Assembly (NCBI GenBank): GCA_022842305.1
Contig: JALHPY010000021.1
Coordinates: 1 to 45,160, forward strand
Direction of reading: 5' to 3'
Length of the DNA stretch: 45,160 nucleotides
From: Rubrivivax sp.
Lineage (GTDB): Bacteria > Pseudomonadota > Gammaproteobacteria > Burkholderiales > Burkholderiaceae_C
Below the pieces are notes generated by a model. The model was not told the DNA's origin. It saw only the letters and a list, made by a program, of their open reading frames with translations, and made no database searches. Both the position numbers and the translations under genes were made by a program. Shown here in pieces: positions 25,706 to 44,423 of this stretch; the stretch's first letter is position 1; every line of letters starts with the position of its first letter.

Positions 25706-26758
25706 CTACGGCAGCGGCACTGGCGGCGCGTAGGTCGGCGCACCGCCGCCGGCGGGATAGGTGGCGGTGACGCGGAATCTCAGCGTCACGCCGCCGGCCG
25801 TCAGGGCGACCACGTAATCTATGTTCGGTGCCGTGTTGAAGGTGGCCCGGATGGAGATGGAGCTGCCCGCACCGGAGCTGATGGTCACCGTCGAGCCGTC
25901 CACCGGCTGCCCGTTGACCATTTGCCAGTTGCTGTAGCCCACGTCGACGTAGCCGCCCGAGACACCCCAGTAGGGGATGCGCACGGTGCCACTGCCAATG
26001 CGGTAGTTGGCCGCGTCGGTCACCGTCACGGAGCCGAGGCCGGTGAAGGACCTGCCGTCCGCGACCATCGTCGTCACGCCCTGGGCGCTGATCTTCAGCT
26101 CACCGACGTCGTTGATGGGACCGAATGCGTAGCCGTTGATCGTGCCACCCAGCTGGTCGCTCGTCACGATCACGTCCAGTCCGGTGAAGTTCGTGGCATC
26201 CGTCAAGCTCAGATCGAAGCCGGTGACGAATTCCAGCCGGAAGCGCCCGCTGAGCGTCACGCTCTGGCCGGACATGGGGCCGCTGACGGTGTTGAAGCGT
26301 ACGTCGACGAAGCTGCCCGCCGGAACGAAGCGCGCGTTGTCGGCCACATTGGTGTCTAGCGTCACGCTGCCGGTACACGGGCCGGCGAAGAAGTCACTGC
26401 AACTCGCGGTCTCCACCGCCAGCGGCTGCTTGAGGCCGGCCACGCCATCGGGGCCCATACCGATCGGGCCGCCGAGCAACAGCCCCAGGCCACTGAGTGA
26501 GCTCGAACGCGCGACGGTGGCGTCGGAGGTCGCAAGCGCGGCCTTCACCGCCTCGGTGGCCTCGGTGCCCGAACTGCTGAGCGTGGCCGGCGTGCTTGGC
26601 GGTCCCTGCACCTGGGTCGGCTGAGGGCCGGAATCCCCACCACCGCCACCGCAGGCAACCAGCCCGAGCACGAGCCCGGCCAGCAACGCCCGGCGCACGT
26701 CGCGCACCCATGCACGGGGCACCAGCGCCAAGGACCGCATTTCAGCCAATGACTTCAT
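25706..26758 (-). CDS. Probable lipoprotein of unknown function
   Basis: The 350-residue protein has a lipoprotein signal: a twin-arginine-containing basic start, a hydrophobic stretch and the lipobox LVAC followed by six glycines (near residue 36). The mature part is rich in Thr, Ser, Val and Gly, with alternating beta-strand patterns (about residues 110-340) and one Cys pair (SCSDFFAGPC), suggesting an all-beta secreted domain. No family is recognised. ATG at 26758 follows a strong GGGAGGA site. The gene is convergent with the srkA-like gene (6 bases between stops) and downstream of htpG in the same direction. Confidence 0.75.
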   Translation of the reverse strand: MKSLAEMRSLALVPRAWVRDVRRALLAGLVLGLVACGGGGGDSGPQPTQVQGPPSTPATLSSSGTEATEAVKAALATSDATVARSSSLSGLGLLLGGPIGMGPDGVAGLKQPLAVETASCSDFFAGPCTGSVTLDTNVADNARFVPAGSFVDVRFNTVSGPMSGQSVTLSGRFRLEFVTGFDLSLTDATNFTGLDVIVTSDQLGGTINGYAFGPINDVGELKISAQGVTTMVADGRSFTGLGSVTVTDAANYRIGSGTVRIPYWGVSGGYVDVGYSNWQMVNGQPVDGSTVTISSGAGSSISIRATFNTAPNIDYVVALTAGGVTLRFRVTATYPAGGGAPTYAPPVPLP

Positions 26759-26833
26759 AGATCCTCCCGTCGGTTGGTGGGCCATGAAATCAACTTAGGC
26801 CAGGCGCTGGCGGGCGTCACGCCCCGGCGATGG

Positions 26834-26849
26834 CGTGGCCGCCGCCACG
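26834..26849 (-). terminator. Hairpin after htpG
   Basis: CGTGGC (26834-26839) pairs with GCCACG (26844-26849) around a 4-base loop, starting about 11 bases beyond the htpG stop on the minus strand. There is no T-run, so termination here is plausible but not certain. Confidence 0.35.
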
Positions 26850-26859
26850 TTGATTCACA

Positions 26860-28746
<1,887 letters not shown>

Positions 28747-28804
28747 GGGTCTGTTCTTCTCGGGATGGTGGCGGCGATGGTCCGGCGACAGCCGGAAGCG
28801 CGGG

Positions 28805-28832
28805 ATTTTGGGGCCGAAGGCCGGAATTCAAG
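28805..28832 (-). promoter_or_regulatory. Sigma-32 (RpoH) heat-shock promoter of htpG
   Basis: On the minus strand CTTGAA (28832-28827) is followed after 13 bases by CCCCAAAAT (28813-28805). The consensus is CTTGAAA-N11-16-CCCCATNT. Both boxes and the spacing fit, and the downstream gene is a classic RpoH target. Confidence 0.85.
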
Positions 28833-28884
28833 CGGGTGATGCGCAGCACGGCGCCGGGCCCCGTGTGTGCAGAGGCCAGCCCGC

Positions 28885-30078
28885 TCAGACCGCCTGGTCG
28901 GCGCGCAGCGCGGCGATCTCGGCCGCGCTCACGCCCAGCTCGGCCAGCAGCGCGTCGGTGTGCTGGCCCAGAGCCGGCACGGCGCGCAGCTGCGGGTCGC
29001 CGTCGTCCCAGCTGCCGGGCGGCAGCAGCGCGGGCACGGGGCCGGCGGGTGTGTCCACCTCGCGCCAGCGGCCGCGCGCCGCCAGCTGCTCGTGCTGCCA
29101 CAGGCCGGACAGGTCGCGCAGCTCGGCGTTGGCGATCTGGGCGTCCTCGAGCCGCTGCACCACCTGGGCGTAGCCAAGCGCGGAAAAGGTCTGCACGATG
29201 ATGTCCCGAAGCACGTCTCGCTGCGCCGAGCGCTGCGCGCTGCCGGCAAAGCGCGGGTCTTGCGCCAGTTGCGGCTGCAGCAGCACCTTGCTGCAGAACT
29301 GCTGCCACTCGCGCTCGTTCTGCAGGCCCAGCATCACGGTCTTGCCGTCACCCGTGGGGAAGGGACCATACGGATAGATCGTGGCGTGGGCGGCGCCCGC
29401 GCGCGGCGGCGGCGGCGCACCGTCGAAGGCGTAGTACAGCGGAAAACCCATCCATTCGCCCATGGCCTCGAGCATGCTCAGGTCGATGCGGCGGCCCCGG
29501 CCGTCGAGGTTGCGCTGCAGCAGCGCCGCCAGGATGTTGCTGTAGGCGTACATGCCGGCGGCGATGTCGGCGATGGAAACGCCGGCCTTGCAGGGTTCTT
29601 CGGGCGTGCCGGTGAGGCTGACGAAGCCGCTCTCGCTCTGGATCAGCAGGTCGTAGGCCTTCTTGTCGCGGTACGGACCGGGCGCGACCGGGTCGTCGCC
29701 GTAGCCGGAGATGTCGCACAGGATCAGGTCGGGCCGGCGGTCCTTGAGCGCCGGCCAGGACACGCCCAGCCGCGCCGCCGCGCCCGGCGCCAGGTTCTGC
29801 ACCACGCAGTCGGCCTTGTCGACGATCAGCCTTTGCAGCAGTTCGACGGCGCGCGGGTGCTTCAGGTCCAGCGTCAGGCTTTCCTTGCTGCGGTTGGTCC
29901 AGACGAAGTGCGAGGCCAAGCCGCGCACGCGCTGGTCGTAGCCGCGCGCGAAGTCGCCCGTGCCGGGGCGCTCGATCTTGATCACGCGCGCGCCCAGGTC
30001 GGCCAGCTGGCGCGTGGCGAAGGGCGCCGCGATGGCATGTTCCAGCGCGACGACGGTGAGCCCTTTCAGCGGCTGCAT
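28885..30078 (-). CDS. CaiB/BaiF-family CoA-transferase (class III)
   Basis: The 397-residue cytoplasmic enzyme moves CoA between carboxylic acids. The class III catalytic aspartate is D171 in VSIADIAAG, and the N-terminal LADLGARVIKIERPGTGDFAR segment is a CoA-site hallmark. ATG at 30078 lies 5 bases after the stop of the upstream MaoC-like hydratase gene, so they form a two-gene operon. In the 3-hydroxypropionate bicycle, mesaconyl-CoA transferase (CaiB type) and mesaconyl-C4-CoA hydratase form the same enzyme pair, which suggests a C5 or similar dicarboxyl-CoA substrate. That is inference. A frame extending to 30792 is an artefact of overlap with the neighbour. Confidence 0.9.
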   Translation of the reverse strand: MQPLKGLTVVALEHAIAAPFATRQLADLGARVIKIERPGTGDFARGYDQRVRGLASHFVWTNRSKESLTLDLKHPRAVELLQRLIVDKADCVVQNLAPGAAARLGVSWPALKDRRPDLILCDISGYGDDPVAPGPYRDKKAYDLLIQSESGFVSLTGTPEEPCKAGVSIADIAAGMYAYSNILAALLQRNLDGRGRRIDLSMLEAMGEWMGFPLYYAFDGAPPPPRAGAAHATIYPYGPFPTGDGKTVMLGLQNEREWQQFCSKVLLQPQLAQDPRFAGSAQRSAQRDVLRDIIVQTFSALGYAQVVQRLEDAQIANAELRDLSGLWQHEQLAARGRWREVDTPAGPVPALLPPGSWDDGDPQLRAVPALGQHTDALLAELGVSAAEIAALRADQAV

Positions 30079-30083
30079 GCGGA

Positions 30084-30929
30084 TCAGCCCTGCAGCGTGG
30101 CGACGGCGTCCATGGTCAGCCAACCTTCGTGGTCCTGGGCCCACAGCCGCACCGTGTTGCCCTCGCGCCGGCCGTTGAGCCTGAAAGCGTGCAGGTCGAA
30201 GGTCGGCCGCAGCGCCTTGAAGTGGAAGTGGGCCACCTGGGCCGCGGGTTCGTGCCTGTGCAGCAGGTCCAGCAGCAGCGTGGCGATGAGCGGGCCGTGC
30301 ACCACCAGCCCGGGGTAGCCCTCGACCTCGGTGACGTAGCGCCGGTCGTAGTGGATGCGGTGGCCGTTGAAGGTGAGCGCGCTGTAGCGGAACAGCAGCA
30401 CATCGTCGGGCACGATCTCGCGCTGCCATGCAGCACCCGTGGGCGCGGCCTGCGGCGGGGGTTCGGCGTCGCCGGGCTGGCGCGCTTCGCGGTAGACGAT
30501 GTCGTGGAACTCCACCAGCGCCGGTTCGGGCGCACCGTTGGCGTGCAGTTCGTGGCGCACCTTGACGAAGACCAGCGGGCCGCTGCGGCCCTGCTTGCAG
30601 CGGACGTCGGCGATGGTGCTGGTGCGCGCCACGGTGTCGCCCACGCGCAGCGGGGCGCGAAACTCGAACTGGCTGCCGGCCCACATGCGCCGTGGCAGCG
30701 GCACCGGCGGCAGGAAGCCGCCGCGCCGGGCGTGGCCGTCGGCGCCGATCTCGCTTTGCCGGTGAAGCGGCAGAAAATACAGCCAGTGCCACAGCGGCGG
30801 CAGCGGCGTGCCGGCGGGCACCGGCTCTGGCGGGTGGTCCAGCGTGGCGGCCAGGGCCATCAGCGGCGTGGCGTGCAGGCTGTCCTGGGCGGTTTCGCTG
30901 CGGCCGATCCAGGCGCTGTGCTCATCCAT
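30084..30929 (-). CDS. MaoC-like (hot-dog) acyl-CoA hydratase, mesaconyl-C4-CoA hydratase type
   Basis: The 281-residue protein is a double hot-dog hydratase. The N-terminal half is the FAS1-dehydratase-like domain (FLPPVPLPRRMWAGSQFEF). The C-terminal half carries the hydratase motif FRYSALTFNGHRIHYD, then GYPGLVVHGPL, where Asp/His of the R-specific hydratase site normally lie. This matches the family containing mesaconyl-C4-CoA and 3-methylfumaryl-CoA hydratases. It is paired with a CaiB transferase, 5 bases away. No citramalyl- or malyl-CoA lyase is nearby, so the pathway is unresolved. ATG at 30929. Confidence 0.85.
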   Translation of the reverse strand: MDEHSAWIGRSETAQDSLHATPLMALAATLDHPPEPVPAGTPLPPLWHWLYFLPLHRQSEIGADGHARRGGFLPPVPLPRRMWAGSQFEFRAPLRVGDTVARTSTIADVRCKQGRSGPLVFVKVRHELHANGAPEPALVEFHDIVYREARQPGDAEPPPQAAPTGAAWQREIVPDDVLLFRYSALTFNGHRIHYDRRYVTEVEGYPGLVVHGPLIATLLLDLLHRHEPAAQVAHFHFKALRPTFDLHAFRLNGRREGNTVRLWAQDHEGWLTMDAVATLQG

Positions 30930-30988
30930 GCGGCATTGTCACCGTGCCGTGCGACCTGCCGCCTCGCGGACAGCGAGGCGGTGGTGCT

Positions 30989-32296
30989 TCAGCGGCAGGC
31001 CCCTGCCGGAGCCGCCGTGTTGCTGACTGCGGCCAGCGCGTCGACGCGCACCTGCGCCACCTTGCCGCAGATGTCGCCGGCGGTGCGTTCGATACGGTCG
31101 GCCACTTCGCGCGGGGTCAGGCCAGGGTTGGCCGCACGCACCAGCGCCACCACGCCCGCCACCAGGGGCGAGGCCATCGAGGTGCCGCTCCAGGTGGCGT
31201 AGCCGCCGCCGGGCACGGTGCTGGTGATGCCTTCGCCGGGGGCGGCCACCTCGATCCAGTTGCCGTAGTTGCTGAAGGCGGCCAACTGTCCGTCGGCGCG
31301 CGTGGCAGCCACCGGGATCAGGCCGTAGACGCTCTCGGCGGCAGGGTACTGCTTGACATGCTTGCTGCCGTCGTTGCCGGCCGCGGCCACGATCACCGCA
31401 CCCACGCTGGCGTTGGCGCAGCGCGCCAGATCGTCGGCGTAGCCGGGGTCGCTGAGGTCGGCGATGGGGTCGCCGGCCACCGGCGTGCTGCAGGTGGCGA
31501 TGAACTCGATGGTCTTGAGGATGCCGGTGCGCGCCATGCTGCCCAGGCTCATGTTGACGACGTGGGCGCCGTCGGCGGTGGTCGGGTTGAGGTCGGGGTC
31601 GATGGCGTAAAGCAGTGCCTCGGCCAGCACCCAGGCGTTGCCCACGCCGTCGGCGTCCAACACGCGCAGTGGCACGATCTTCGCGCCCGGGGCCACCTGG
31701 GCCACCAGGCCGGCCACGTGGGTGCCATGGCCGAAGCCCGCGCCGCCGGCCACCTCGGACGGCAGGGGGCGGGAATCGACGAAGTCCTTGCCCGGCAGCA
31801 CGTGATCCCTCAACTCCAGATGGTCGGCATCGATGCCGGTGTCGAGCACGGCCACACGGATGCCGACGCCCGTGCTCAGCTCGTGCGCCGGAGCCAGGCT
31901 GAGCGCCTGAGGCGCCCACGAAGCCTCTTTGTCGGCCTTCGTGCCGATGGCCCAAGGCATGTTGCCCCTCGCCTCGGGGCTGCGCTGCACGGGGTTGGTC
32001 TCGGCCAGCATGACTTCGGGCTCGCGCAGCAGCAGCCGGATCACGTCTTGCGGCGCAACGCCGGCGCCCACCTGCAGTCGGTAGATGGGCCGCGCGCCGA
32101 AGCGGCTGACCAGGGTCAGCCTGTGCTTGAGCAGCAGCGGCTGCAGCCCCGCCGTGCTGCGCAGCTTGACCAGCACCTCGCCCGGCATGTCGGGTTCTGC
32201 CTTGGCCTGCCCGCGCGCCGACACCGTGCTGGCGCACAGGACGGCAAGCAGGGCCACGAGGGGCCAGCGGCGCAGGACTTTGGAGATCAGGTTCAT
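30989..32296 (-). CDS. Secreted subtilisin-like serine protease (S8)
   Basis: The 435-residue product has a Sec signal (about residues 1-28, ending VSARG) and an inhibitor-I9-like propeptide (about 38-103). The S8 catalytic domain has an intact triad: D152 (LDTGID), H193 (HGTHVAG) and S373 (GTSMASP), with oxyanion N308 (AAAGND). Cysteines at 269, 293, 410 and 434 could form two disulfides. ATG at 32296 is chosen because it opens the signal peptide. The gene is 141 bases downstream of the TPR-CHAT gene on the same strand and probably belongs to the sigma-factor-led cluster, though it may have its own promoter. Confidence 0.93.
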   Translation of the reverse strand: MNLISKVLRRWPLVALLAVLCASTVSARGQAKAEPDMPGEVLVKLRSTAGLQPLLLKHRLTLVSRFGARPIYRLQVGAGVAPQDVIRLLLREPEVMLAETNPVQRSPEARGNMPWAIGTKADKEASWAPQALSLAPAHELSTGVGIRVAVLDTGIDADHLELRDHVLPGKDFVDSRPLPSEVAGGAGFGHGTHVAGLVAQVAPGAKIVPLRVLDADGVGNAWVLAEALLYAIDPDLNPTTADGAHVVNMSLGSMARTGILKTIEFIATCSTPVAGDPIADLSDPGYADDLARCANASVGAVIVAAAGNDGSKHVKQYPAAESVYGLIPVAATRADGQLAAFSNYGNWIEVAAPGEGITSTVPGGGYATWSGTSMASPLVAGVVALVRAANPGLTPREVADRIERTAGDICGKVAQVRVDALAAVSNTAAPAGACR

Positions 32297-32437
32297 GGTC
32301 GGTCTCACTGGGGCACGGACGGATCCGTTTAACAGAGGGGGCAATCGTGCACGAGATACATGCCGATTCCAGCTACCCACCGCTCACCTGAGGGGTGCCC
32401 GGGGGCGGCCGCTAAAAGTGCATTGTGCCCATTTTTA

Positions 32438-35236
32438 TCACCAACCACCATACAAGGCAAATGCGGCCCACATGTAGGGATGAGGGTGCTCGGCCCGCGT
32501 CGCCAGTTGCGCGTTGCGCAAGGCCTTGGCCGGAGGCTCGCCGGCGCGCAGCCTGCCGTAGAAGCGCGCCATGAAGTCGGCGGTGATCCGGTCGTCCACC
32601 GGCCACAGGCTGGCCAGCACGCGCGAGGCTCCGGCCACGAGGAAGGCGCGCACCAGGCCCACCATCTCGTCGCCCGTGTCCTGCTCGGCCAGGCCGGTCT
32701 CGCAGGCGCTCAGCACCACGGTGCAGGCCTTCAGCCCCAGAGCCTCGGCCTGGTCGACGGTGAACGCCCCGTCGTGCAGGTGCAGCGCCGAAAAGCGCGG
32801 GTTGTCGCTGCGGAACTGGGCATGGCAGGCCAGATGCAGCACGTCGGCCTGTGCAGCATGTGCTTGCAGCTGTTGCACCGTGGCCTGCTCGCCGACCAGG
32901 CTGCAGCCGACGTCGAACAGCCCGGCCACGCGGCGTGCCTCATCGGCCGCGTGCGGCAGGCGGCTGGATTCACCCAGCGCCAGCGCCTGCCTCGCCGCCA
33001 CCGGGGGGCGCTGCAGGCCGCGCAGGGCGGCACGCGCACTGGGGACCAGCGCGATCTCGTGGCGTTCGCCCAGCACGTGGCTGCCGTCCCCCAGGGCCGC
33101 GAAAGGCAAGGAACCCAGCTGCGCATGGGGCACGACCAGCACGCGCGCGCTGTCGCCCACCACCTGAGTCAGCGGCGCCCAGATCAGGGTGTAGAGCCTG
33201 GCCAGGCGCTGCTGCGAGCGGCGCATCAGGATCTCGAGGTACTGCTGCACCGGCGCGATGCCGTGGCGCAGGGTCTCGAGCTGAAAGCGCAGCGAGCGCA
33301 CCGCCTCGGCCACCTCGGCCCAGGGCGCGAGCGCGCGCACCAGGTGCACCGCCGTGGGCGTGGCGACGCAGGCGAAGAGTTCGCCGTCGAGCACGCCGTA
33401 TTCCACCAGCGCATCGCCCGGCTGCAACGCGGCCTGCAACGCGGTCACGCTGAAGCCCTGCTGGGCACTGCCCTGCAGCGCCGGCGCGGCCAGGCGGTGG
33501 CGGCGCGCACGCTCCAGCAGGTCGCGCTCGGTGCGCAGCAACTCCTCATTCAGCGTGGCCGAGACGCTGGCCTCGTCGGCCTGCTGCTGCACGCGCCGGT
33601 ACAGCCAGTTCAGGCGGTCGCGCAGCGGCTGCACTTCTGCCTGCAGCGCCGGCTCGGCGCCCTCGGCCAGACGCTCGTCCAGCGCGCGCGCGCGAAAACG
33701 GTCCAGTTGCGACAGCGCCTCGGTACCTTCGCCCGCGGCCACCGCCATGCGCAGACGCTCTTGATAAGGCCGCAGGTGGTCGGCCAGGAATGCGCTGCGC
33801 AGATCGTCGCCGGGCAGCGTGCGGCGCTGGTCCTCGAACAGCTCGATGGCCGCTTCGAAGGCGCTGCTGGCGGCCTCGATCTGGCCCGCCGCCTGCGCTG
33901 CCAGACCCAGCCCGGTGAGACAGCGCACCTGCACCTGAACCTGCTGCAAGCCGAGCGCCGAATCCAGCGTGGACTGGAAGCGCCGGCGCGCCGCATCCGC
34001 CTGGCCGGTCTGCAGCAGTGCCTGCGCGTAGGTCACGGCAGCGCGCGCGCGACCGTCGGCCTGGCCGGCCCGGGCATAGCCCTCTTCGGCCAGCACCGAC
34101 CAGCTCAGCGCCGCCGGGGTGTCGCCCTCCGCCAGGGCCAGGTCGGCGCGCGCCAGCGTCACCGTGCTCTGGCCGACGGCATTGCCCTGCGCCGAGAACA
34201 GGGCCGACGCGGCGGCAAAGCTTCCGCCAGCCTCTGTCGGCCTGCCCAGCAGCGCCTGGGTGCGCCCGCGCTGTGCCAGCGCCCAGGCCTGCTCGTCGGG
34301 CAGGTCCAGGCCGGCAAAGCGCTCGACCGCGGCATTGAACAGCGCCAGCGCCTCGGGCAGCAGCCGCAGTTCGAGGTAGGCGTCGCCGAGCTGCTTTTCG
34401 GCAATGGCCAGATACTGCGGCACGGCCAGCGCCTCGTAGCGCCGACGCGCCGACTCGAAGGCCGCCAGCGCCGGCCGGTAATGGCCGCGCGCCAACTCGA
34501 CCAGCCCGACCCATTCGTCCACCAGCGCCAGCTGCATCGCCAGGCCACGGTTCTTGGCGCGCATGCCGGCCCGTGCGTAGATGCGCAGCGCCTCGTCGAA
34601 GTCGCCCATCGCGGAGAGTTGCGACGCCAGGCCGATGTCGGCCAGCACCGAGTACTCATGGTTGCCCAACCGCGCGAACAGCACCGCCGCCTCTCGGAAG
34701 TGACCGGCGGCCTCGGCGTACTCGTCCTGGCGCCCGAGCAGGTTGCCCAGGTTCAGGCTCACGCGGCTGGCGGCGGCCACGTTGCCCAGCGCCAGCAATT
34801 CGCGCTGCGCCACGCGCGCACAGGCCGCCGCCGCCTTGTGATGGCCCAGCATCGACAAGGCCATGATCTTGGGCACCTGGGTCTGCGCCGCCGGGTCGGG
34901 GCGGCCGGCCTGGCGCAGCGCGGCGGCGGCATCGTCCAGCGCCTGCACACCGTCGATCATCTGACCGCGCGTGAGGCAGGCGATGCCCTCGGTCCAGCGC
35001 GCCAGGCCCTCGATCTCGGCAGCGTCGGCCGCCGGCACGCCGGCATCGCGCAACGCGCGCAGCGCCTCGGCCGCGCGCGCCGCGCGCGGCGGCTCGCTGT
35101 TCCAGGCCTCGTAGCAAAGGTCCTTCAGGGCCCAGGCCAGCGCCAGGCAATCTTCTTGCGCCACCTCGGGCAGGGGCGTGCCGGCCTCGAGCAGGCGCCG
35201 GGCCTGCGCTTGCGCTTCTTCAGCGCTGGCACTCAA
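32438..35236 (-). CDS. TPR-CHAT caspase-like protease
   Basis: The 932-residue protein has an N-terminal helical and TPR array (about residues 60-470) followed by a CHAT domain (about 640-932). CHAT is a caspase-fold cysteine peptidase related to separase. The His/Cys dyad is intact: H805 in HLACHAQF and C845 in VVLSACETG, 40 residues apart. The C-terminal ALRNAQL and HPYMWAAFALYG segments are usual for CHAT. There is no signal peptide, so it acts in the cytoplasm, and the TPRs presumably bind a regulator or target. Its start overlaps the stop of the 173-residue gene by ATGA, and an ECF sigma gene lies just upstream. Relatives include the TPR-CHAT subunit of Craspase, but no CRISPR genes are here. 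Confidence 0.92.
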   Translation of the reverse strand: MSASAEEAQAQARRLLEAGTPLPEVAQEDCLALAWALKDLCYEAWNSEPPRAARAAEALRALRDAGVPAADAAEIEGLARWTEGIACLTRGQMIDGVQALDDAAAALRQAGRPDPAAQTQVPKIMALSMLGHHKAAAACARVAQRELLALGNVAAASRVSLNLGNLLGRQDEYAEAAGHFREAAVLFARLGNHEYSVLADIGLASQLSAMGDFDEALRIYARAGMRAKNRGLAMQLALVDEWVGLVELARGHYRPALAAFESARRRYEALAVPQYLAIAEKQLGDAYLELRLLPEALALFNAAVERFAGLDLPDEQAWALAQRGRTQALLGRPTEAGGSFAAASALFSAQGNAVGQSTVTLARADLALAEGDTPAALSWSVLAEEGYARAGQADGRARAAVTYAQALLQTGQADAARRRFQSTLDSALGLQQVQVQVRCLTGLGLAAQAAGQIEAASSAFEAAIELFEDQRRTLPGDDLRSAFLADHLRPYQERLRMAVAAGEGTEALSQLDRFRARALDERLAEGAEPALQAEVQPLRDRLNWLYRRVQQQADEASVSATLNEELLRTERDLLERARRHRLAAPALQGSAQQGFSVTALQAALQPGDALVEYGVLDGELFACVATPTAVHLVRALAPWAEVAEAVRSLRFQLETLRHGIAPVQQYLEILMRRSQQRLARLYTLIWAPLTQVVGDSARVLVVPHAQLGSLPFAALGDGSHVLGERHEIALVPSARAALRGLQRPPVAARQALALGESSRLPHAADEARRVAGLFDVGCSLVGEQATVQQLQAHAAQADVLHLACHAQFRSDNPRFSALHLHDGAFTVDQAEALGLKACTVVLSACETGLAEQDTGDEMVGLVRAFLVAGASRVLASLWPVDDRITADFMARFYGRLRAGEPPAKALRNAQLATRAEHPHPYMWAAFALYGGW

Positions 35237-35754
35237 TTGGGCCGCTCGCCCACCTCGACTGCGGGCAAGACGATCTCGTCAGAGCCCATGCGCAGGGTCA
35301 GCACGTAGGTGCCACCGCGCAAGCCATCGATACGGAATTCGCCCAGTGCGTCCAGGTGCGTGACATGAGCGGCGCGGTCTTCACCGTGCTGCACCGCCAG
35401 CTCGATGCTGCCGACGTCATCGGGGCCCAGGATCTGGCCGGCCACCGTGTAGGTTTCGGAGGCCGCGGCGATGCGCAGGTCGATGTCGCGCCCCTGCGCC
35501 GTGAACAGCAGGTGGCGGGTGGGCGACCGCAAGGACCGCATGCCGTGGGCCAGCGCCGGTGCCGCCCAGCTGTCGAAGGTGAGCACGGCCGCGACGCGCC
35601 GCATCACCGCCTGCACGGCGTTCTTCAGCGCCGCGCCGGCCCACAGGCCCTGGGCCGCACGCTGCCAGCTGGCCGGCGCGTCGGGCAGGCCTCGCACGGC
35701 CTGGGCCACCTGCTGGGCGAATTCTTCGTCGGAGAGGAAATCAAGAGATTTCAT
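35233..35754 (-). CDS. 173-residue protein of unknown function between the sigma factor and the TPR-CHAT gene
   Basis: The N-terminal 30 residues (FLSDEEFAQQVAQAVRGLPD) look like a helical interaction segment. A helical middle contains a moderately hydrophobic stretch (about 40-70), too weak to be a sure membrane helix. The last 70 residues look like a small beta-sandwich (GSIELAVQHGE, DALGEFRIDGLRGGTYVLTL) of the carboxypeptidase-regulatory-like type. No cysteine or zinc motif of classical anti-sigma factors is present. Position makes it a candidate sigma regulator or CHAT target, but nothing in the sequence proves either. ATG at 35754; ATGA overlap with the CHAT gene shows coupled translation. 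Confidence 0.75.
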   Translation of the reverse strand: MKSLDFLSDEEFAQQVAQAVRGLPDAPASWQRAAQGLWAGAALKNAVQAVMRRVAAVLTFDSWAAPALAHGMRSLRSPTRHLLFTAQGRDIDLRIAAASETYTVAGQILGPDDVGSIELAVQHGEDRAAHVTHLDALGEFRIDGLRGGTYVLTLRMGSDEIVLPAVEVGERPN

Positions 35755-35826
35755 GGCTGGGGCGCTCGTCGGGATGCCACACAGAGCGTGCGCAGGGCGC
35801 GCAAATACATTGCCTTACCGATTTTG

Positions 35827-36417
35827 TCAGGAAGTGCCGACCAGCTTGCGCAATTTGTCCAGGCAGCGCCCCCGCGTCGGCCCGATGCTGCCCTGGGGGA
35901 TGCCCAGGCGGCGCGCCACTTCGTCATAGGGAATGTGCTCGTCCTCGTCGCGAAAGACCAGCAGCAGCAGGTCGCGGCAGCGCGCATCCAGGCGGTCCAG
36001 GCCGTTGCGCAGCAAGTTGAGTTGCTGCAGCTCGGACAGGGCTTCCTCGGCCAGCGGCGCAGCGTCGGCCAGCGTGTCCTCGATATCGTCGCCCTGGGCA
36101 ATGCCGTCGTCGTCATGGCGCGTCATCGACACCGTCCGCCGCCCGATTTCACGCGCGCGCAGGGCCTCGCGCTTGGCCGTGGTCACCACCCAGGCCTGCA
36201 GCCGATCCGGCTGCGTCAGGCGGGGCAGGTGGTCGATGAGACGCGCGAACACGGTCTGGAAGACATCGGCGGCCGCATGCTCGTCCAGGCCGACGCGCAT
36301 GACGATGGCGTAGACCAGGCGCTGGTAGCGCCTGACGAGCAACTGCCATGCAGCCGCCTCGCCCTGGCGGCAGCGGGCGACCAGGGCAGCATCGTCTTGG
36401 GGGTCTGGCGCACTCAT
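35827..36417 (-). CDS. ECF-family RNA polymerase sigma factor
   Basis: The 196-residue protein has region 2 (about residues 20-90: LVRRYQRLVYAIVMR, AADVFQTVFARL, QAWVVTTAKREAL) and region 4 (about 135-190: LDARCRDLLLLVF, IPYDEVARRLGIPQGSIGPTRGRCLDKLR). The two are joined by an acidic linker of about 30 residues. It directs transcription of a small regulon, most likely the genes downstream. ATG at 36417. It lies 72 bases upstream of the 173-residue gene. No recognisable transmembrane anti-sigma gene is adjacent, so control must be unusual or encoded elsewhere. The 157 bases upstream hold GC-rich inverted repeats and no recognisable gene. Confidence 0.92.
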   Translation of the reverse strand: MSAPDPQDDAALVARCRQGEAAAWQLLVRRYQRLVYAIVMRVGLDEHAAADVFQTVFARLIDHLPRLTQPDRLQAWVVTTAKREALRAREIGRRTVSMTRHDDDGIAQGDDIEDTLADAAPLAEEALSELQQLNLLRNGLDRLDARCRDLLLLVFRDEDEHIPYDEVARRLGIPQGSIGPTRGRCLDKLRKLVGTS

Positions 36418-36574
36418 GGCAAGCCGGGCATGGTAGCCCCTGGCCGCAGGCCCGCCCTGGACAAACTGCTCGCGGATCGCCTTGCGCGCGCAGCGCGCGA
36501 CGCCAGCGGTGGCGGCAAGCGTGCGTTGCTTGGCGCGCGCCGAGCAGCAGGGGGCCGCCCCGGAGCGGCGCGCG

Positions 36575-38397
<1,823 letters not shown>

Positions 38398-38787
38398 TCA
38401 GCGGTCCTCGCCGACGAAACGGTTGCCTTCGATGGGGCGGCCGCCGGCCAGCATCATCTGGCGGTACTGCTCCTCGCTCAGGCCGGTCATGCTGCCGGCC
38501 ATCTGCTGGAAGCTCTTGCCGTCGGTGGCGCCGATCTTGGCCAGGAAGTAGATGTTGCCGCCGGCAGCGATGCAGCGGTTGAGGTCGCGCGCCAGCACCG
38601 CCTGCTTCTGCTCCTCGGTCATGGGCCATTCGTCCAGGTAGGCGCGCTCGTCGGCCTTGAAGCGCGCGCGATTGGCGGCCTGCATCAGGCTCATGCAGAA
38701 CTGGTTGAGGTGATACCCCTTACGGCTCTGCTCGGCGTCGAAGATGGTGGTGCCGGGGATGTCTTTGTAGGGCTTGTCCAGGGCCAT
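38398..38787 (-). CDS. ligA: Protocatechuate 4,5-dioxygenase, alpha subunit
   Basis: The 129-residue helical subunit packs over the active site of LigB. The start DKPYKDIPGTTIFDAEQSRKGYHLN and the later DWN-type contact region DLNRCIAAGGNIYFLAKIG are typical. It is slightly shorter than Sphingobium LigA (139). It is separated from ligI upstream by 75 bases that contain a GC-rich repeat. Confidence 0.95.
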   Translation of the reverse strand: MALDKPYKDIPGTTIFDAEQSRKGYHLNQFCMSLMQAANRARFKADERAYLDEWPMTEEQKQAVLARDLNRCIAAGGNIYFLAKIGATDGKSFQQMAGSMTGLSEEQYRQMMLAGGRPIEGNRFVGEDR

Positions 38788-38794
38788 GTCAGTA

Positions 38795-38862
38795 CCGCAC
38801 GGCCGTTCCGAAGGTACTGACCGCCCCCTCGGGGGGCAGCGAGCGCAGCGAGCGTGGGAGCA
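38795..38862 (+). repeat. Intergenic repeat, copy C (inverted relative to copy D)
   Basis: It holds CCGCACGGCCGTTCCG (38795-38810), then AAGGTACTGAC, a CCCCCTCGGGGGG palindrome and a GCGAGCGCAGCGAGCG tail. The first block and the palindrome recur in inverted orientation at 39787-39853, so the two copies bracket ligI. The CCCCCTCGGGGGG palindrome with its tail is a motif I know from Comamonadaceae intergenic regions. Confidence 0.75.
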
Positions 38863-39786
38863 TCATTTCAATTCCTCGGGCCAGTACAGGCGCATCGGGT
38901 TGGCTACGAGCAGTTTGTATTGCAGCTCGGCCGTTGCCGCAATGTGCGGGATGAAGTCCACCAGCAGCCCATCGTCGGGCATGTGGTCCTTGAGGTTGGG
39001 GTGCGGCCAATCGCTGCCCCACAACACGCGGTCGGGGAAGCTCTCGACGATGCGCCGCGCAAACGGCACGACGTCGCGGTAGGCCGCCTGCTCGTCGCGC
39101 AGCGCCGGCGGGCCGGTCAGGCTCAGGCGTTCGGGGCAGCTGACCTTGCTCCACACATTGGCGTGCTCGCGCATGAAGCGCACGAAAAGCTCGAACTGCG
39201 GGCCGTCCACCGGCAGGCTGACGTCGGGCCGGCCCATGTGGTCCACCACCACCGGCGTGGGCAGGGCGCTGAAGAAGTCCCACAGCTCGGGCAGGTCCAC
39301 CGCCTCGAAGTACACCACCACGTGCCAGCCTAAAGCGCCGATGCGCTGGGCGATCTCCAGCAACTCGTCGCGCGGCGTGAAGTCGACCAGGCGACGCACG
39401 AAGTTGAAGCGCACGCCGCGCACGCCGGCCGCATGCAGGGCCTGCAGTTCTTCGTCGCTGACGCTGCGCTTTACCGTGGCCACGCCGCGCGCGCGGCCCA
39501 GGGCGGCCCGGCAGGCGTCGGCCAGCGCGCGGTTGTCGGCACCGTGGCAGGTGGCCTGCACGATGACGTTGCGCGCAACGCCCAGGTGATCGCGCAGTGC
39601 GAACAGCTGCGCCTTGCCCGCGTCACAGGGCGTGTACTTGCGCTCCGGCGCGTAGGGAAACTGGTCACCGGGTCCGAACACATGGCAGTGCGCGTCCACG
39701 CTGCCCGGTGGCAGCACGAAGCGCGGACGGCTGGGGGCCGGGTGCCAGTCCAGCCAGCCGGGCGTCTTGGTGAAGGCTGCGCTCAT
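38863..39786 (-). CDS. ligI: 2-pyrone-4,6-dicarboxylate hydrolase
   Basis: The 307-residue amidohydrolase opens the PDC lactone to 4-oxalomesaconate. The HxH motif is VDAHCH (residues 30-35), H183 is in VVDHMGRPD and D259 is the conserved aspartate in WGSDWPHPN. The length is a little above Sphingobium LigI (293). ATG at 39786. It is flanked on both sides by related repeats in opposite orientation. Confidence 0.95.
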   Translation of the reverse strand: MSAAFTKTPGWLDWHPAPSRPRFVLPPGSVDAHCHVFGPGDQFPYAPERKYTPCDAGKAQLFALRDHLGVARNVIVQATCHGADNRALADACRAALGRARGVATVKRSVSDEELQALHAAGVRGVRFNFVRRLVDFTPRDELLEIAQRIGALGWHVVVYFEAVDLPELWDFFSALPTPVVVDHMGRPDVSLPVDGPQFELFVRFMREHANVWSKVSCPERLSLTGPPALRDEQAAYRDVVPFARRIVESFPDRVLWGSDWPHPNLKDHMPDDGLLVDFIPHIAATAELQYKLLVANPMRLYWPEELK

Positions 39787-39853
39787 GTAGCCCCCTTGGC
39801 GCTGCGCGCCGTCCCCCCGAGGGGGAGTGAGCGCCTTCGGAACGGCCGTGCGG
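39787..39853 (-). repeat. Intergenic repeat, copy D
   Basis: On the minus strand it reads CCGCACGGCCGTTCCGAAGG, then a CCCCCTCGGGGGG palindrome and a GC-rich tail, related to copy C. It fills the 70-base gap between pobA and ligI. Confidence 0.75.
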
Positions 39854-39856
39854 CGC

Positions 39857-41035
39857 TCATGCCGGCTCGAAAGGCATGCCGGCGTACTGCTCGGCCAGGG
39901 AGGCCTGGGCGTGCGGCGATGACTTGAGGTAGTCGAGTTCGCTTTCCTGCGCGCGCTGGTCGAAATCGCTGTCGCCCGGAAAGCGGTGCAGCAGCTTGGT
40001 CAGATACCAGGAGGTGCGCTCCGAACTCCACACGCGCCGCAGCGCGGTGGCGCTGTAAGCGTCTATCAACGCGCTGCTGCCGCTGGCGTAGAACGCCGCC
40101 AGCGCGCGCTGCAGGTAGAACACGTCGGACACCGCCAGGTTGATGCCCTTGGCCCCCGTGGGCGGCACGATGTGGGCCGCGTCACCGCACAGGAACAAAT
40201 GGCCGTGGCGCATGGGCTCGGCGACAAAGCTGCGCAGGGGCGCGATCGACTTTTCGATGCTAGCGCCGGTGACGATCTGCCGCGCCATCTCGGACGGGAA
40301 GCGCGCCGCCAGCTCGGCCCAGAAGCGGTCATCGCTCCAGTCGTCCACCGTGTCGGCCAGCGGCACCTGGATGTACCAGCGGCTGAGCATCGGGCTGCGC
40401 TGCGAGCCTAAAGCGAAGCCGCGCGGGTGGTTGACGTAGGTGATGTCGGGCAGCGGCGGCGTGCGCGACAGGATGCCCAGCCAGCCGAAGGGGTAGGCCT
40501 TCTCAAACTCGCGCCGCAGCGTCGCCGGAATGGCCTGACGGCTGACGCCGTGGAAGCCGTCGCAGCCGGCGATGAAGTCGCAGTCCAGGCGGAAATCCTC
40601 GCCGCGGTGGCGAAAGCTCACCCAAGGCTGCTCACCCGCCACGTCGTGCGGCTGCACGGCGTCGCACTCGGTCAGCACCTGGGCGCTGCGGCGGTCAGCG
40701 GCGGCGAACAGGTCTTCCTGGATCTGCGACTGGCCGTAGGCCATGAAGCGCTTGCCCAGGTGCTTGTGGCAGTCGATGTAGAAGCTGTCGCGCCCGGCCC
40801 AGACGATGCGCATGCCGTCGTGCACATGGCCCAGTGCGTCCATGCGCGCGCCCAGGCCGGCGGCGCGCAGGACATCCACCGTGGTCTGCTCAAGCACGCC
40901 GGCACGGATGCGCGCGATCACGTGCTCGCGGCTGTGCTTCTCGAGCACCACGCTGTCTATGCCCTGGCGGTGCAGCAGTTCGGCCAGCAGCAGCCCGGCC
41001 GGGCCACCGCCGATGATGGCGACCTGGGTCTTCAT
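39857..41035 (-). CDS. pobA: 4-hydroxybenzoate 3-monooxygenase
   Basis: This 392-residue flavoprotein hydroxylates 4-hydroxybenzoate to protocatechuate using FAD, NAD(P)H and O2. The FAD dinucleotide motif is GGGPAG (9-14), RIRAGVLEQ is the signature near residue 42, and GDAAHIVPPTGAKGIN is the second FAD/substrate motif. The length matches PobA of Pseudomonas (394). Residues 33-40 (KHSREHVI) differ from the NADPH-type RQTPDYVL of P. fluorescens, so NADH may be preferred; that is inference. The start overlaps the stop of the DUF1932 gene by 4 bases. The gene feeds the ring-cleavage genes that follow. Confidence 0.96.
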   Translation of the reverse strand: MKTQVAIIGGGPAGLLLAELLHRQGIDSVVLEKHSREHVIARIRAGVLEQTTVDVLRAAGLGARMDALGHVHDGMRIVWAGRDSFYIDCHKHLGKRFMAYGQSQIQEDLFAAADRRSAQVLTECDAVQPHDVAGEQPWVSFRHRGEDFRLDCDFIAGCDGFHGVSRQAIPATLRREFEKAYPFGWLGILSRTPPLPDITYVNHPRGFALGSQRSPMLSRWYIQVPLADTVDDWSDDRFWAELAARFPSEMARQIVTGASIEKSIAPLRSFVAEPMRHGHLFLCGDAAHIVPPTGAKGINLAVSDVFYLQRALAAFYASGSSALIDAYSATALRRVWSSERTSWYLTKLLHRFPGDSDFDQRAQESELDYLKSSPHAQASLAEQYAGMPFEPA

Positions 41036-41940
41036 GCTTGTCCTTCACTGGCGATGGCGGCCAGCAGCCGGTCGGCCTCGACGCGCCAGTCGGCGCTGCG
41101 CGCAAAGCCCGGCGTGCCGCGCACGCCGAAGACGCCGAGATCGGCCAGATCGGCCATGGCCGCCTGGCGGTCGGCGGTGGCATCGGCGGCGTAGGGCGCC
41201 AGCCCGGCCTCGGCCACGGTGACGGCGGCCTCGCGCACTTCTTCGCTGCGGCGCCGGCCGTGTTCGATGACGCGCTGGAAGAAGTAGGCGCCTTGCCTTT
41301 CCCAGTCTATGGACGGAAAGCTCTCCTGCAGCGACGCGATCACCGCGTCTTCCACGCCGTAGTGGCGCGCGCTGGTGAAGCTTTCGATCACCAGCGCCTC
41401 CAGGCCCTTGATCATGATGCTGCGGCACATCTTGGTGGCGCTGGCCACGCCCAGGCGCTCACTCGCCACGCGCGCGGCAAAGCCCAGCGCCGCCAATTGC
41501 GGCAGCAGCGCCGCGGCGTCGGGGCCGCCCAGCAGCAGCGGCACCTGGATGCGGTAGGGCGGCACCGAGGTCATCACCGCGCCCTCGACGTAGCGCCCGC
41601 CCGCCGCGTTGACGATCTCAGCGGCGCGGATCTTGGCGCCGGGCGAGGCCGAGTTGAAGTCCAGGAAGAAGGCGCCGGCCGCCAGCCCGGCGGCACAGGC
41701 CTGCGCCACCGCCACGGCCTGGCTGGCGGTGACGGCGCTGATCACCAGTTCAGCGCCGCGCACCGCACCGGCGTGGTCGGCCGCCAGCACCACGCCTTGC
41801 ACCGCGGCGTGGGCACGCATCGCGTCGCCTGCGGCGCTGGCCAGCTTGAGGTCGTACGCGCTGACCGCCAGCCCTTGCGCGCGCAAGTCCTCGGCCAGGA
41901 TGGCACCGACCTCGCCGTAGCCGATGAGGGCGATCTTCAT
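41032..41940 (-). CDS. 6-phosphogluconate-dehydrogenase-like NAD(P)-dependent oxidoreductase with DUF1932 domain
   Basis: The 302-residue protein has an N-terminal NAD(P)-binding Rossmann domain (IALIGYGEVGAILAEDL, residues 3-19) and a C-terminal DUF1932 domain (KMCRSIMIKGLEALVIES, then an all-helical tail). It belongs to the beta-hydroxyacid dehydrogenase superfamily. It sits inside the 4-hydroxybenzoate operon between ligK (1-base gap) and pobA (4-base overlap), so it must have a related role, yet none of the known pathway steps needs it. Options are a side-chain dehydrogenase for a related aromatic or an unassigned step. ATG at 41940. Confidence 0.88.
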   Translation of the reverse strand: MKIALIGYGEVGAILAEDLRAQGLAVSAYDLKLASAAGDAMRAHAAVQGVVLAADHAGAVRGAELVISAVTASQAVAVAQACAAGLAAGAFFLDFNSASPGAKIRAAEIVNAAGGRYVEGAVMTSVPPYRIQVPLLLGGPDAAALLPQLAALGFAARVASERLGVASATKMCRSIMIKGLEALVIESFTSARHYGVEDAVIASLQESFPSIDWERQGAYFFQRVIEHGRRRSEEVREAAVTVAEAGLAPYAADATADRQAAMADLADLGVFGVRGTPGFARSADWRVEADRLLAAIASEGQA

Positions 41941-41941
41941 T

Positions 41942-42625
41942 TCAGTCGATGTAGCGCAAGCCGGCCTTGGCCAGCGTGCCGCGCATGTCGTACAAGTCCA
42001 GCCCCAGCACACCGGCGGCGAACTTGGCGCGCTTGTCGGCTTCCAGCGCCTCGCGCCGGGCGGCGGCCTCGGCCACGGCCGGCGCGCGCGCCGCGGGCAC
42101 GACCACCACGCCGTCGTCGTCGGCCACGATCACGTCGCCCGGGGTCACCAGCATGCCGGCGCAGACCACGGGGATGTTGACCGAGCCCAGCGTGGCCTTG
42201 ATCGTGCCCTTGCTGCTGACCGCCCGGCTCCACACCGGGAATCCCATCTGCTGCAGCGACTTCACGTCGCGCACCCCCGCGTCGATGACCAGCGCGCGTG
42301 CGCCCCGGGCCTGGAACGAGGTGGCCAGCAGGTCGCCGAAATAGCCGTCGGTGCAGGGCGCGGTGACGGCGGCGACGACGATGTCGCCCGGGCGGATCTG
42401 CTCGGCCGCCACGTGCAGCATCCAGTTGTCGCCCGGCTGCAGCAGCACGGTGACTGCCGTGCCCGAGACCTGCGCGCCGGGGTAGATGGGCCGCATGCAG
42501 GGCTGCATCAGGCCCACGCGGCCCTGGGCCTCGTGCACGGTGGCGCAGCCGAAGGCCGCCAGCGCGTCGGCCGCCGCGCGCTCGGCGCGGACGATGTTGC
42601 GATAGACCACACCCAACTCGAACAT
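41942..42625 (-). CDS. ligK: 4-carboxy-4-hydroxy-2-oxoadipate aldolase
   Basis: The 227-residue RraA-fold class II aldolase splits CHA to pyruvate and oxaloacetate. The divalent-metal and substrate motif is [12 protein letters not shown], with Arg-Asp of the family, and GDIVVAAV is the first conserved loop. The length equals PmdF/LigK (227-228). ATG at 42625 lies 1 base after the ligJ stop. It is the last step of the protocatechuate 4,5-cleavage pathway. Confidence 0.95.
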
Positions 42626-42626
42626 C

Positions 42627-43652
42627 TCACTGCCCCCTTTGCCGCAACACCGCGTCCAGCCTTGGGTAGACCCGGCGCGCATTGCCTTCGTAGATCTGCC
42701 GGCGCTCGGCCGGCGACAGCACGCTGGCCTCTATGTAGCGCCGCGTGTCGTCGTAGTGGAAGCCGGTCTCGGGGTCGATGCCGCGCACGGCGCCGATCAT
42801 CTCGCTGGCGAACAGGATGTTGTCCACCGGGATCACGCGCGTCAGCAGGTCCACGCCCGGCTGGTGGTAGACGCAGGTGTCGAAGAAGATGTTCTTCAGC
42901 AGATGCTCCTGCAGCAGCGGCTTCTTCAGCTCTTGCGCCAGCCCGCGAAACCGCCCCCAGTGGTAAGGCACGGCGCCGCCGCCGTGCGGGATGACGAAAC
43001 GCAGCGTCGGGAAGTCGCGGAACAGGTCGCCCGCCAGGCACTGCATGAAGGCCGTGGTGTCGGCGTTGAGGTAGTGCGCGCCGGTGGTGTGGAAGCAGGC
43101 GTTGCAGCTGGTGCTGACATGCACCATGGCCGGGATGTCGTACTCGACCATCTTCTCGTACACCGGGTACCAGTGGCGGTCGGTCAGCGGCGGGCTGGTC
43201 CAGTGGCCGCCTGAGGGGTCGGGGTTCAGGTTGACGGCCACACAACCATAGTGCTCCACGCACTTCACGAGTTCGGGGATGCAGCTGGCCGGGTCCACAC
43301 CCGGGCTTTGCGGCAGCATGGCCGCAGGGATGAAGTGATCCGGAAACAGCAGCGCCACGCGAAAGCACAGCTCATTGCAGATCGCCGCCCAGGTGCTGCT
43401 GACCTGGAAATCGCCGATGTGGTGCGCCATGAAGCTGGCGCGCGGGCTGAAGATGGTCAGGTCGCTGCCGCGCTCGCGCATCAGGCGCAGTTGGTTGGCC
43501 TCGATGCTCTCGCGCAGTTCGTCGTCGCCGATGTGCAGGTCAGCCGCACGCGGCATGGCCGCCGGGTTCTGGATGCCGGCGATCTGCGCGTGGCGCCAGT
43601 GTTCCAGCGCCTTGGGCGCGGTGGTGTAGTGGCCGTGGCAGTCGATGATCAT
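42627..43652 (-). CDS. ligJ: 4-oxalomesaconate hydratase
   Basis: The 341-residue amidohydrolase-superfamily hydratase (zinc-dependent) converts 4-oxalomesaconate to CHA. Residues H6 and H8 (CHGH), H178 (MVHV), H223 (IPHGG) and E284 (FASEM) occupy the positions of the LigJ active site. The length equals LigJ (341). ATG at 43652. It lies 10 bases after the ModA-like gene and 1 base before ligK. Confidence 0.95.
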
Positions 43653-43662
43653 GGTCGTTCTT

Positions 43663-44394
43663 TCAGGCGGCTTCCATGCCGTGGCGGCGCCGGGCTGCTT
43701 CGGCCTGCGGCGAGCGTATGAAGTCCAGGAAGGCGCGCGCCTGCGCGCCGCGTGCCGTCGTCAGCCCCAGACCGGCGGCAAAGGTGGTGGTGTGCGCGAC
43801 TTCTGCGGGCAGCGGGCCCAGCAGCGCGATGCCGTCCAGGTGCAGCAGCTCGCTCAGCTGCTGGAAGGCGATATCCACTTCGCCGCGCGCCAGCAGTTGC
43901 CCCACCGGTACGCCGGGCGGTGCCTGCACCAGTCGTTCGGCCAGGCCCCAGCGCGTGCACAGCGCGGCCATGTAGCTGCCGCTGGGGCCGGTGGAGTGGC
44001 CGATGCGCAGCGCCGCTTGCAGCGCCTGGCGCAAGGCGTCGGCCGTGTCGATGCCAGGCCGCGGCGAGCCGGCGCGCACGGCCACGGCCACGGGCGAGCG
44101 CAGCAGGTCGACGCGGCTGCCCGCGGCCAGATGGCCATCGCCGATCAGGCCTTCGATCGCGTCCGCCGCCAGCAGCACCCAGTCGAAGGCCTCGCCCGCC
44201 CGCACGCGGCGTGCGGCGTCGACGCCACCCATCGAAATGATGTGCTGTGCGACCCCGCCCTGCTGCTGCCACTGCGCGGCCAGTTCGGCCAGCAACGCGC
44301 GCGTGGCCATCGACGACAGGCCGCTGAGCGGCTCCGGGGGCGAAGGGCTGCTGGACTGGGCGCTCACCGGACATTCTTGAGCAGTGGCTTCCAT
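43663..44394 (-). CDS. ModA-like solute-binding protein without a signal peptide
   Basis: The 243-residue protein has the type II periplasmic-binding fold of molybdate-type binding proteins (LSGLSSMATRALLAEL opening, ATGPSGSYMAA-like STGPSGSYMA ligand loop, GVPVGQLLARGEVDIAFQQLSEL). It lacks a signal peptide: the N-terminus is polar and Ser/Pro-rich. So it may be cytoplasmic, or it may be secreted differently. It leads the 4-hydroxybenzoate operon and is divergent from the LysR gene. ATG at 44394 is the most natural start; GTG at 44415 or 44349 are possible. The ligand may be an aromatic acid or pathway intermediate rather than molybdate; this is inference. Confidence 0.75.
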   Translation of the reverse strand: MEATAQECPVSAQSSSPSPPEPLSGLSSMATRALLAELAAQWQQQGGVAQHIISMGGVDAARRVRAGEAFDWVLLAADAIEGLIGDGHLAAGSRVDLLRSPVAVAVRAGSPRPGIDTADALRQALQAALRIGHSTGPSGSYMAALCTRWGLAERLVQAPPGVPVGQLLARGEVDIAFQQLSELLHLDGIALLGPLPAEVAHTTTFAAGLGLTTARGAQARAFLDFIRSPQAEAARRRHGMEAA

Positions 44395-44396
44395 GC

Positions 44397-44411: not shown

Positions 44412-44423
44412 ACACTAGCTGCC

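Follow-up and report, generated by a model that had tools for sequence, protein, structure and literature searches.

The 45,160-nucleotide stretch of DNA analyzed here (the window; contig JALHPY010000021.1 of Rubrivivax sp., Burkholderiales) harbors a minus-strand gene cluster encoding, in order, an extracytoplasmic function (ECF) sigma factor, a 173-residue protein (P173), a TPR-CHAT cysteine peptidase and an S8 serine peptidase. The results presented below reveal that these four genes form a conserved module and that P173 is the constant partner of the sigma factor across phyla. By its neighborhood, the locus is a Burkholderiales version of an actinobacterial module of the ECF54 type. By analogy with the CASP relay of type III-E CRISPR systems, it is tentatively proposed that P173 is a soluble inhibitor of the sigma factor that is cleaved by TPR-CHAT. 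The partnership of P173 with the sigma factor and this testable link to the CASP relay are the new content of this work.

Conservation of the module in Burkholderiales

The original prediction treated the four genes as a module and named a lack of co-occurrence in other genomes as one result that would speak against it. Co-occurrence was found: the full sigma-P173-TPR-CHAT-S8 order is present on one strand in 26 of 31 Burkholderiales loci (with the CHAT frame of L168 split in two). A profile of the CHAT domain alone detects CHAT in 28 of the 31 loci, the exceptions being L024, L158 and L164; L158 and L161 are truncated by contig ends. Given these neighborhood counts, the clustering is beyond chance. 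The loci comprise 14 stretches fetched around 15 genes outside the window and 17 fetched subsequently, the latter being 16 of 20 new places plus G062 (G927, G712 and both places in G788 were omitted). An initial search detected relatives of P173 in 12 of 41 genomes, namely the window's own, 11 of 24 from the same genus and none of 16 from other families. A wider search found them in 18 of 399 genomes of the family, spread over 12 of 141 genera, in two of 300 genomes at the level of the order (including the window's own), and in the window's own genome only among 229 at the level of the class. The module is thus patchily distributed. One P173 relative, from Rubrivivax sp. A210, is 87% identical to that of the window.

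The four genes lie where the original prediction placed them, as intact, colinear open reading frames (ORFs) (Table 1). The sigma and P173 genes are separated by 72 bases, and the TPR-CHAT and S8 genes (the latter from its inner ATG) by 141 bases. The four-base overlap between the P173 and TPR-CHAT genes had been read as ATGA; it is TTGA, and the CHAT gene starts with TTG. To judge from this overlap, the two genes are likely translationally coupled.

Table 1. Features of the sigma-P173-TPR-CHAT-S8 cluster in the window
Feature	Position	Strand	Basis
ECF sigma factor, 196 aa, regions 2 and 4, without extension	35827..36417	-	Pfam Sigma70_r2/r4, NCBIfam sigma70-ECF
P173, 173 aa, proposed sigma inhibitor and TPR-CHAT substrate	35233..35754	-	weak CarboxypepD_reg match, fold model, neighborhood
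TPR-CHAT cysteine peptidase, 932 aa, TTG start, H805/C845 dyad	32438..35236	-	CHAT E 2e-63, with TPRs
S8 serine peptidase, predicted signal peptide and prodomain, from inner ATG	30989..32296	-	Peptidase_S8 E 1e-43, Fervidolysin_NPro-like
TTGA stop/start overlap of P173 and TPR-CHAT genes	35233..35236	-	read from sequence
GCTACCAT, -10-like element, 12 bases upstream of the start codon of sigma	36430..36437	-	motif search

The sigma factor matches Pfam Sigma70_r2 (E 8e-13) and Sigma70_r4 (E 4e-7) and lacks a membrane segment (top 19-residue hydropathy 0.95). The catalytic dyad of TPR-CHAT was predicted to be intact, and H805 and C845 are indeed identical in 12/12 same-order relatives and in 31/31 rows of a mixed alignment, both sets including the window sequence. 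D882 is likewise identical in 31/31 rows of the mixed alignment. The window's genome has five CHAT matches above the Pfam cut-off, the window's included, and three of the others lie within 10 kb on contig C1. Six plasmid records matching CHAT were inspected, and the four that are annotated list no sigma factor beside CHAT. In the two unannotated records, a sigma gene stands beside CHAT only in Nonomuraea (L044). By itself, CHAT marks the module poorly.

The longest S8 ORF begins at 32380. An inner ATG at 32296, 28 codons in, opens a predicted signal peptide, the N-terminus being of the signal-peptide type as judged by eye. The triad motifs are DTGID, GHGTHV and GTSMASP, giving D152, H190 and S373 in the numbering of the longest ORF. 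The original prediction had the aspartate and serine right and gave H193, which is the second histidine of HGTHV; the first, H190, is presumably the catalytic one. A Sec-type or lipoprotein-type signal is predicted on 28 of 29 Burkholderiales S8 proteins, and S8 is the final gene in all 26 complete cassettes. The actinobacterial S8 ORFs mostly show no evident export signal.

P173 as the constant partner of the sigma factor

Relatives of the sigma factor were sought outside Burkholderiales. Among 72,556 plasmid records there were five sigma matches at E<=1e-5, all of them actinobacterial. Two loci are from Nonomuraea gerenzanensis. In L048, the gene right after sigma encodes a P173 relative (profile E 7.6e-9); S8 precedes the pair, and CHAT lies on the opposite strand. 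In L044, genes for S8, the sigma factor and CHAT stand in a row, and a frame between the last two was judged P173-like by eye (no profile hit at E 0.01).

A collection of genomes was then scanned with a sigma alignment headed by the L048 sequence, so that neighboring genes played no part in selection, and the best 80 of at least 595 stretches (at least 584 relatives) were analyzed. All but four are titled actinobacteria; the exceptions are metagenome-assembled genomes (MAGs) of Chloroflexi, Acidobacteriota and Betaproteobacteria and one further bacterium. A P173 relative lies directly downstream of the sigma gene in 66 of the 80 loci, a count that is partly by construction, as 65 rows of the P173 profile come from the same loci; a profile built on the window's relatives alone finds P173 in 49. 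Among 7998 candidates scored, 743 protein clusters belong to the P173 family at E<=1e-3.

The presence of the proteases tracks that of P173. With full-length profiles, the 66 loci with P173 divided into 42 with both CHAT and S8, seven with CHAT only, one with S8 only and 16 with neither, and one of the 14 loci lacking P173 scored for CHAT. Pfam was checked on 20 chosen neighbor genes of loci with P173, which added S8 in L067, L084 and L092 and a CHAT-CBM9 fusion in L080, and on 19 genes from 13 of the 14 loci lacking it. The full-length CHAT profile also picks up TPR proteins, and the loci were recounted with the CHAT-domain profile. This dropped L057 and L129 (both at contig ends) as well as L122, whose CHAT call was rejected as a BTAD/NB-ARC/TPR regulator by Pfam, and added L080. 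In the final count, 43 loci with P173 have both proteases, five CHAT only, three S8 only and 15 neither (51/66 with CHAT and/or S8), and neither protease was found in the 14 loci lacking P173 by the CHAT-domain profile and the Pfam checks on neighbor genes. The pattern holds in the 45 loci with more than 6 kb on both sides: 37 have P173 (26 with both proteases, three with CHAT only, none with S8 only, eight with neither), and all eight lacking P173 have neither protease. The genes are therefore nested, sigma above P173 above the proteases, and P173 belongs first to the sigma factor.

In a tree of 115 sigma factors, the window sigma and those of the actinobacterial loci split from five other ECF sigma factors of the window's genome with support of 95/97, in a tree whose outgroup branches are long and whose bootstrap had not settled. 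These five are the ones that passed the length and profile filter among the genome's 11 other ECFs above the family cut-off. The companions of the window sigma include those of Geodermatophilus siccatus L071 (P173 only) and the Geodermatophilaceae MAG L066 (all four genes). The Burkholderiales sigma factors were not recovered as a single clade. The sigma genes of an Acidobacteriota MAG (L104) and an Actinomycetes MAG (L099) are almost identical, which reflects either a binning error or recent transfer.

The related sigma factors that lack P173 (L064, L074, L075, L076, L089, L095, L101, L102, L105, L112, L118, L121, L122 and L131) are a separate sigma context of their own. In L074, L075, L095, L118, L121 and L122, genes for large regulators of the AAA_16 or NB-ARC type adjoin the sigma gene; several of these regulators also contain LuxR or BTAD parts. 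In an Acidimicrobiia MAG (L080, 8058-10490), the gene after P173 encodes an 810-residue CHAT-CBM9 fusion with no TPR match. On a plasmid of Miltoncostaea oceani (L050, 8947-10367), the sigma gene is directly followed by a short S8 gene, and neither P173 nor CHAT was detected.

Proposed release of the sigma factor and its alternatives

The original prediction noted the lack of a classical transmembrane anti-sigma factor, and this is borne out by P173, the product of the gene after sigma, which has no membrane segment (top 19-residue hydropathy 1.07) and no anti-sigma match in Pfam. It had been called unknown; it is not featureless, since residues 104-156 give a sub-threshold match to CarboxypepD_reg (Pfam, E 7e-4). 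Its predicted model (predicted local distance difference test score 88.9) consists of N-terminal helices (residues 9-51) and an Ig/FN3-like beta sandwich (52-171), the latter assigned by fold comparison of the model; Foldseek returned no match for the model at E<=1e-3. A peptidase or carboxypeptidase role for P173 was rejected: a regulatory-like domain accounts for its one notable match, and the predicted fold is the sandwich. The protein had been suggested to be a sensor, an anti-sigma factor or a target. No other protein is as good a candidate as P173 for the missing anti-sigma factor, a role that it would fill in soluble form.

In the proposed mechanism, P173 would hold the ECF sigma factor inactive as a soluble partner, probably through its helical N-terminus. 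The separase/Csx29-like TPR-CHAT protease would stay inactive until its TPR superhelix binds a cue, in place of Cas7-11. Once activated, TPR-CHAT would cut P173 and free the sigma factor to transcribe a regulon, probably including its own, presumably co-transcribed, cluster. The S8 protease, predicted to be exported, would be the output or would mature outputs, acting in the envelope or extracellularly. In Burkholderiales, S8 more probably serves as an output than as a regulator, since an enzyme located in the periplasm or outside the cell would have no contact with a sigma factor in the cytoplasm. The mechanism as a whole is possible, by analogy with Csx30, Csx29 and CASP-sigma.

Several observations weigh against it. 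No anti-sigma domain occurs among the 50 top fold matches per list for P173, lists that were filled by the sandwich, so that the helical N-terminus was hardly probed. P173 has no NCBIfam match and hence no sequence tie to Csx30. A conserved ECF-type -35/-10 pair was not found upstream of the cluster by spaced 4-mer and motif searches. What does recur shortly before the sigma gene, in the window (36430-36437) and at other loci, is a GGCATCAT/CTATCAT element; the log-likelihood of this -10-like motif is 47.8 versus 21.8-26.1 in five shuffled sets, with 150 motif seeds for the real set and 60 for the shuffles. Some Burkholderiales loci also depart from what the mechanism would lead one to expect: L019 has P173-CHAT-S8 with no sigma gene within 17 kb; L164 has P173 and S8 without CHAT and just a distant ECF nearby; and L027 (6687-16968) carries a tandem P173-CHAT-S8-sigma-P173-CHAT-S8 in which the first cassette lacks a sigma gene of its own. 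Finally, co-variation favors a link between the sigma factor and CHAT over one between P173 and CHAT, contrary to a simple substrate model. In a mirror-tree analysis of 26 cassettes, residual correlations were 0.70 for sigma-CHAT, 0.27 for CHAT-S8, 0.26 for sigma-P173, 0.12 for sigma-S8, 0.10 for P173-CHAT and 0.03 for P173-S8, distances being noisy for a 173-residue protein. The observed value was reached in 0/500 permutations for sigma-CHAT, 1/500 for sigma-P173 and 100/500 for P173-CHAT, which upholds the link of P173 to the sigma factor.

Because the P173-CHAT link fails in this analysis, the cleavage of P173 is proposed only tentatively, and direct action of CHAT on the sigma factor is kept as a strong rival. 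TPR-CHAT would then bind or degrade the sigma factor itself, with P173 as an adaptor or delivery factor. The sigma-CHAT co-variation, the strongest observed, is consistent with this, and proteolytic control without an anti-sigma factor was proposed for ECF54 from similar neighbors (PMC8999054, available excerpts). However, P173 is kept with the sigma factor where CHAT was not found in 18 of the 66 loci (eight with more than 6 kb on both sides; neighbors Pfam-checked in part), and the Burkholderiales locus L024 likewise keeps only sigma and P173. Moreover, the characterized circuit of TPR-CHAT and a sigma factor cuts the inhibitor; in the Csx30-RpoE complex, Csx30 alone is cut, according to the available parts of PMC10028731 and PMC9729208. 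Direct action on the sigma factor is considered rather unlikely.

The original prediction suggested an effector role, in which the sigma factor answers stress or conflict by inducing both proteases as end effectors and P173 is a sensor; the proteases might then kill cells or mount an extracellular attack. The four genes share a strand and are closely spaced or overlapping, and S8 has a predicted export signal, both of which are compatible with this. PADLOC's generic 'subtilase' model matches S8 (E 9e-17), the glycosyltransferases beside two cassettes have a Pfam GT4-conflict match that ranks lower than those to generic glycosyltransferase models, and a TPR-CHAT protease that cuts gasdermin in anti-phage defense is mentioned in the accessible portion of PMC9729208. 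However, the other PADLOC matches (BovA, IetS) are partial, and a common ECF promoter was not found. The identified flank families present in at least three loci are histidine kinases, glycosyltransferases, DUF4956, VTC and a repeat protein, and no recurrent defense gene was found among the five of nine shared flank families scanned. PADLOC profiles and flanking genes gave no evidence for an anti-phage role. An effector role is judged distinctly unlikely. The accompanying idea that CHAT within the cell and subtilisin beyond it act in a proteolytic chain found no support: the export signal predicted for S8 in Burkholderiales is mostly not evident in the actinobacterial loci, and the CHAT-S8 correlation is modest (0.27).

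It is highly improbable that S8 in Burkholderiales instead starts the signal path by sensing damage or prey outside the cell, its products reaching the TPR domain. The terminal position of S8, its near-universal signal in Burkholderiales and the mostly signal-less actinobacterial ORFs would suit such a path. However, the cassette contains no transporter or membrane receptor, the CHAT-S8 correlation is just 0.27, and S8 was not found in five loci with P173 and CHAT.

Genes outside the cassette vary. The flanking genes scanned in the window are metabolic (Pfam, three genes): a Gfo/Idh oxidoreductase upstream, and MaoC-like and CoA-transferase genes downstream. Two related flanking genes occur in five of the 31 Burkholderiales loci (L025, L027, L031, L167 and L168), the L025 copies encoding DUF4956 and VTC-domain proteins. 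The commonest flank family is present in seven of the 31 and is of the histidine-kinase type in L021. Related glycosyltransferase-type genes lie near the cassette in L021, L022, L024 and L155; the L021 and L024 copies, those scanned, also match GT4-conflict, at a weaker level. Directly downstream of S8, L020, L154 and L169 share a related gene on the same strand, the L154 copy having a divergent InlB B-repeat domain. It is possibly a fifth cassette gene and a surface substrate.

Relation to known sigma-control systems

The gene combination is not novel: similar neighbors were already reported for actinobacterial ECF54, with carboxypeptidase, subtilase and CHAT domains and proteolytic control proposed in the absence of an anti-sigma factor; the model member is SFT86700.1 of Geodermatophilus amargosae (PMC8999054, available excerpts). 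All three neighbor types are present in the window, the carboxypeptidase part being the sub-threshold CarboxypepD_reg match in P173. The same kind of gene set, an ECF sigma factor without a classical anti-sigma factor beside carboxypeptidase(-regulatory), subtilase and CHAT genes, also occurs in Nonomuraea, Catellatospora and Saccharopolyspora, among others. The window's relatives have a fixed order with S8 last and a predicted export signal, whereas in actinobacterial loci S8 often precedes the sigma gene, the strand and order of CHAT vary, and S8 mostly lacks an evident signal. The sub-threshold match in P173 and the precomputed PF13620 on four of 120 listed P173 relatives suggest that the 'carboxypeptidase' neighbor of ECF54 is the P173 family. 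Weighing against this, both P173-like proteins of Nonomuraea lack a Pfam match at E<=0.05. The neighborhood is real, conserved and of a kind previously recognized, and the Burkholderiales form has a probably exported subtilase. Among the matches listed in a literature search whose coverage leaves out most subscription journals, no paper on P173 or the cluster was recognized. Other neighborhoods of caspases and ECF sigma factors have different parts (PMC8195603, in the available text).

The original prediction drew a parallel with the gating of Craspase; closer than gating alone is the CASP relay in its entirety. There, the ECF sigma factor CASP-sigma is bound and inhibited by Csx30, which is cut by the TPR-CHAT protein Csx29 once target RNA has activated this protease (PMC10028731, available sections). 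The window likewise combines an ECF sigma factor, a neighboring protein and a TPR-CHAT protein of similar predicted fold with a His-Cys dyad; the top Foldseek matches of the TPR-CHAT model are separase, and Csx29 is also matched. However, the window CHAT scores 47.9 bits against a cut-off of 300 for NF041237 (Csx29), and so falls outside that family. P173 is much shorter than Csx30, of which fragments extend to residue 565 (PMC10028731), and lacks an NCBIfam match. A CRISPR-like array was not found in the window from 26000 to 45160, nor was a Cas gene found among the three flanking genes scanned.

DdvA (PDB 8rot, 8rw5), deposited as a transmembrane anti-sigma factor, is also a CHAT-domain protein tied to sigma control; it matches the full-length TPR-CHAT model (Foldseek E 1e-13) and its CHAT part (sequence profile E 4e-15). 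As deposited, DdvA is a single membrane anti-sigma protein, whereas here TPR-CHAT is separate and the candidate inhibitor is small and soluble. Among the matches listed for DdvA in the literature, no paper bearing the name appeared.

TPR-CHAT is likened to separase in PMC9729208, where the separase S1 aspartate for P1-Arg is given as D2151; the P1 specificity is from PMC4626109 (both as far as available). The likeness of the window protein to separase (Peptidase C50) lies in a long helical repeat with a caspase-like domain, and Pfam gives a weak C50 match (E 0.024). Counted from the presumed number of the separase catalytic Cys, the D2151 position falls on A886. Because A886 is not acidic, Arg specificity is not predicted for TPR-CHAT. 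Arg73 of P173 is invariant, or nearly so, in two alignments (83/83 and 79/81 rows). It was considered as the P1 residue of a separase-like cut and kept as a lead only, A886 not being conserved.

ECF54-type sigma factors have so far had proteolysis proposed as their control, in the excerpts of PMC8999054 available. P173 as a constant sigma partner, with the CASP link, turns a list of neighbors into a direct experiment. A bolder and doubtful generalization is that the module is a CRISPR-free, widespread sigma-release relay, in which a separase-like TPR-CHAT cuts P173, a small inhibitor with an Ig domain and perhaps the 'carboxypeptidase' neighbor, and thereby releases an ECF sigma factor. Such a relay may be the wider kind behind the CASP relay and DdvA, acquired by Burkholderiales across phyla with the subtilase re-routed out of the cytoplasm. 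If the link to the CASP relay is right, caspase- and separase-like proteases would be general bacterial devices for sigma release, with many uncharacterized examples, rather than a CRISPR curiosity.

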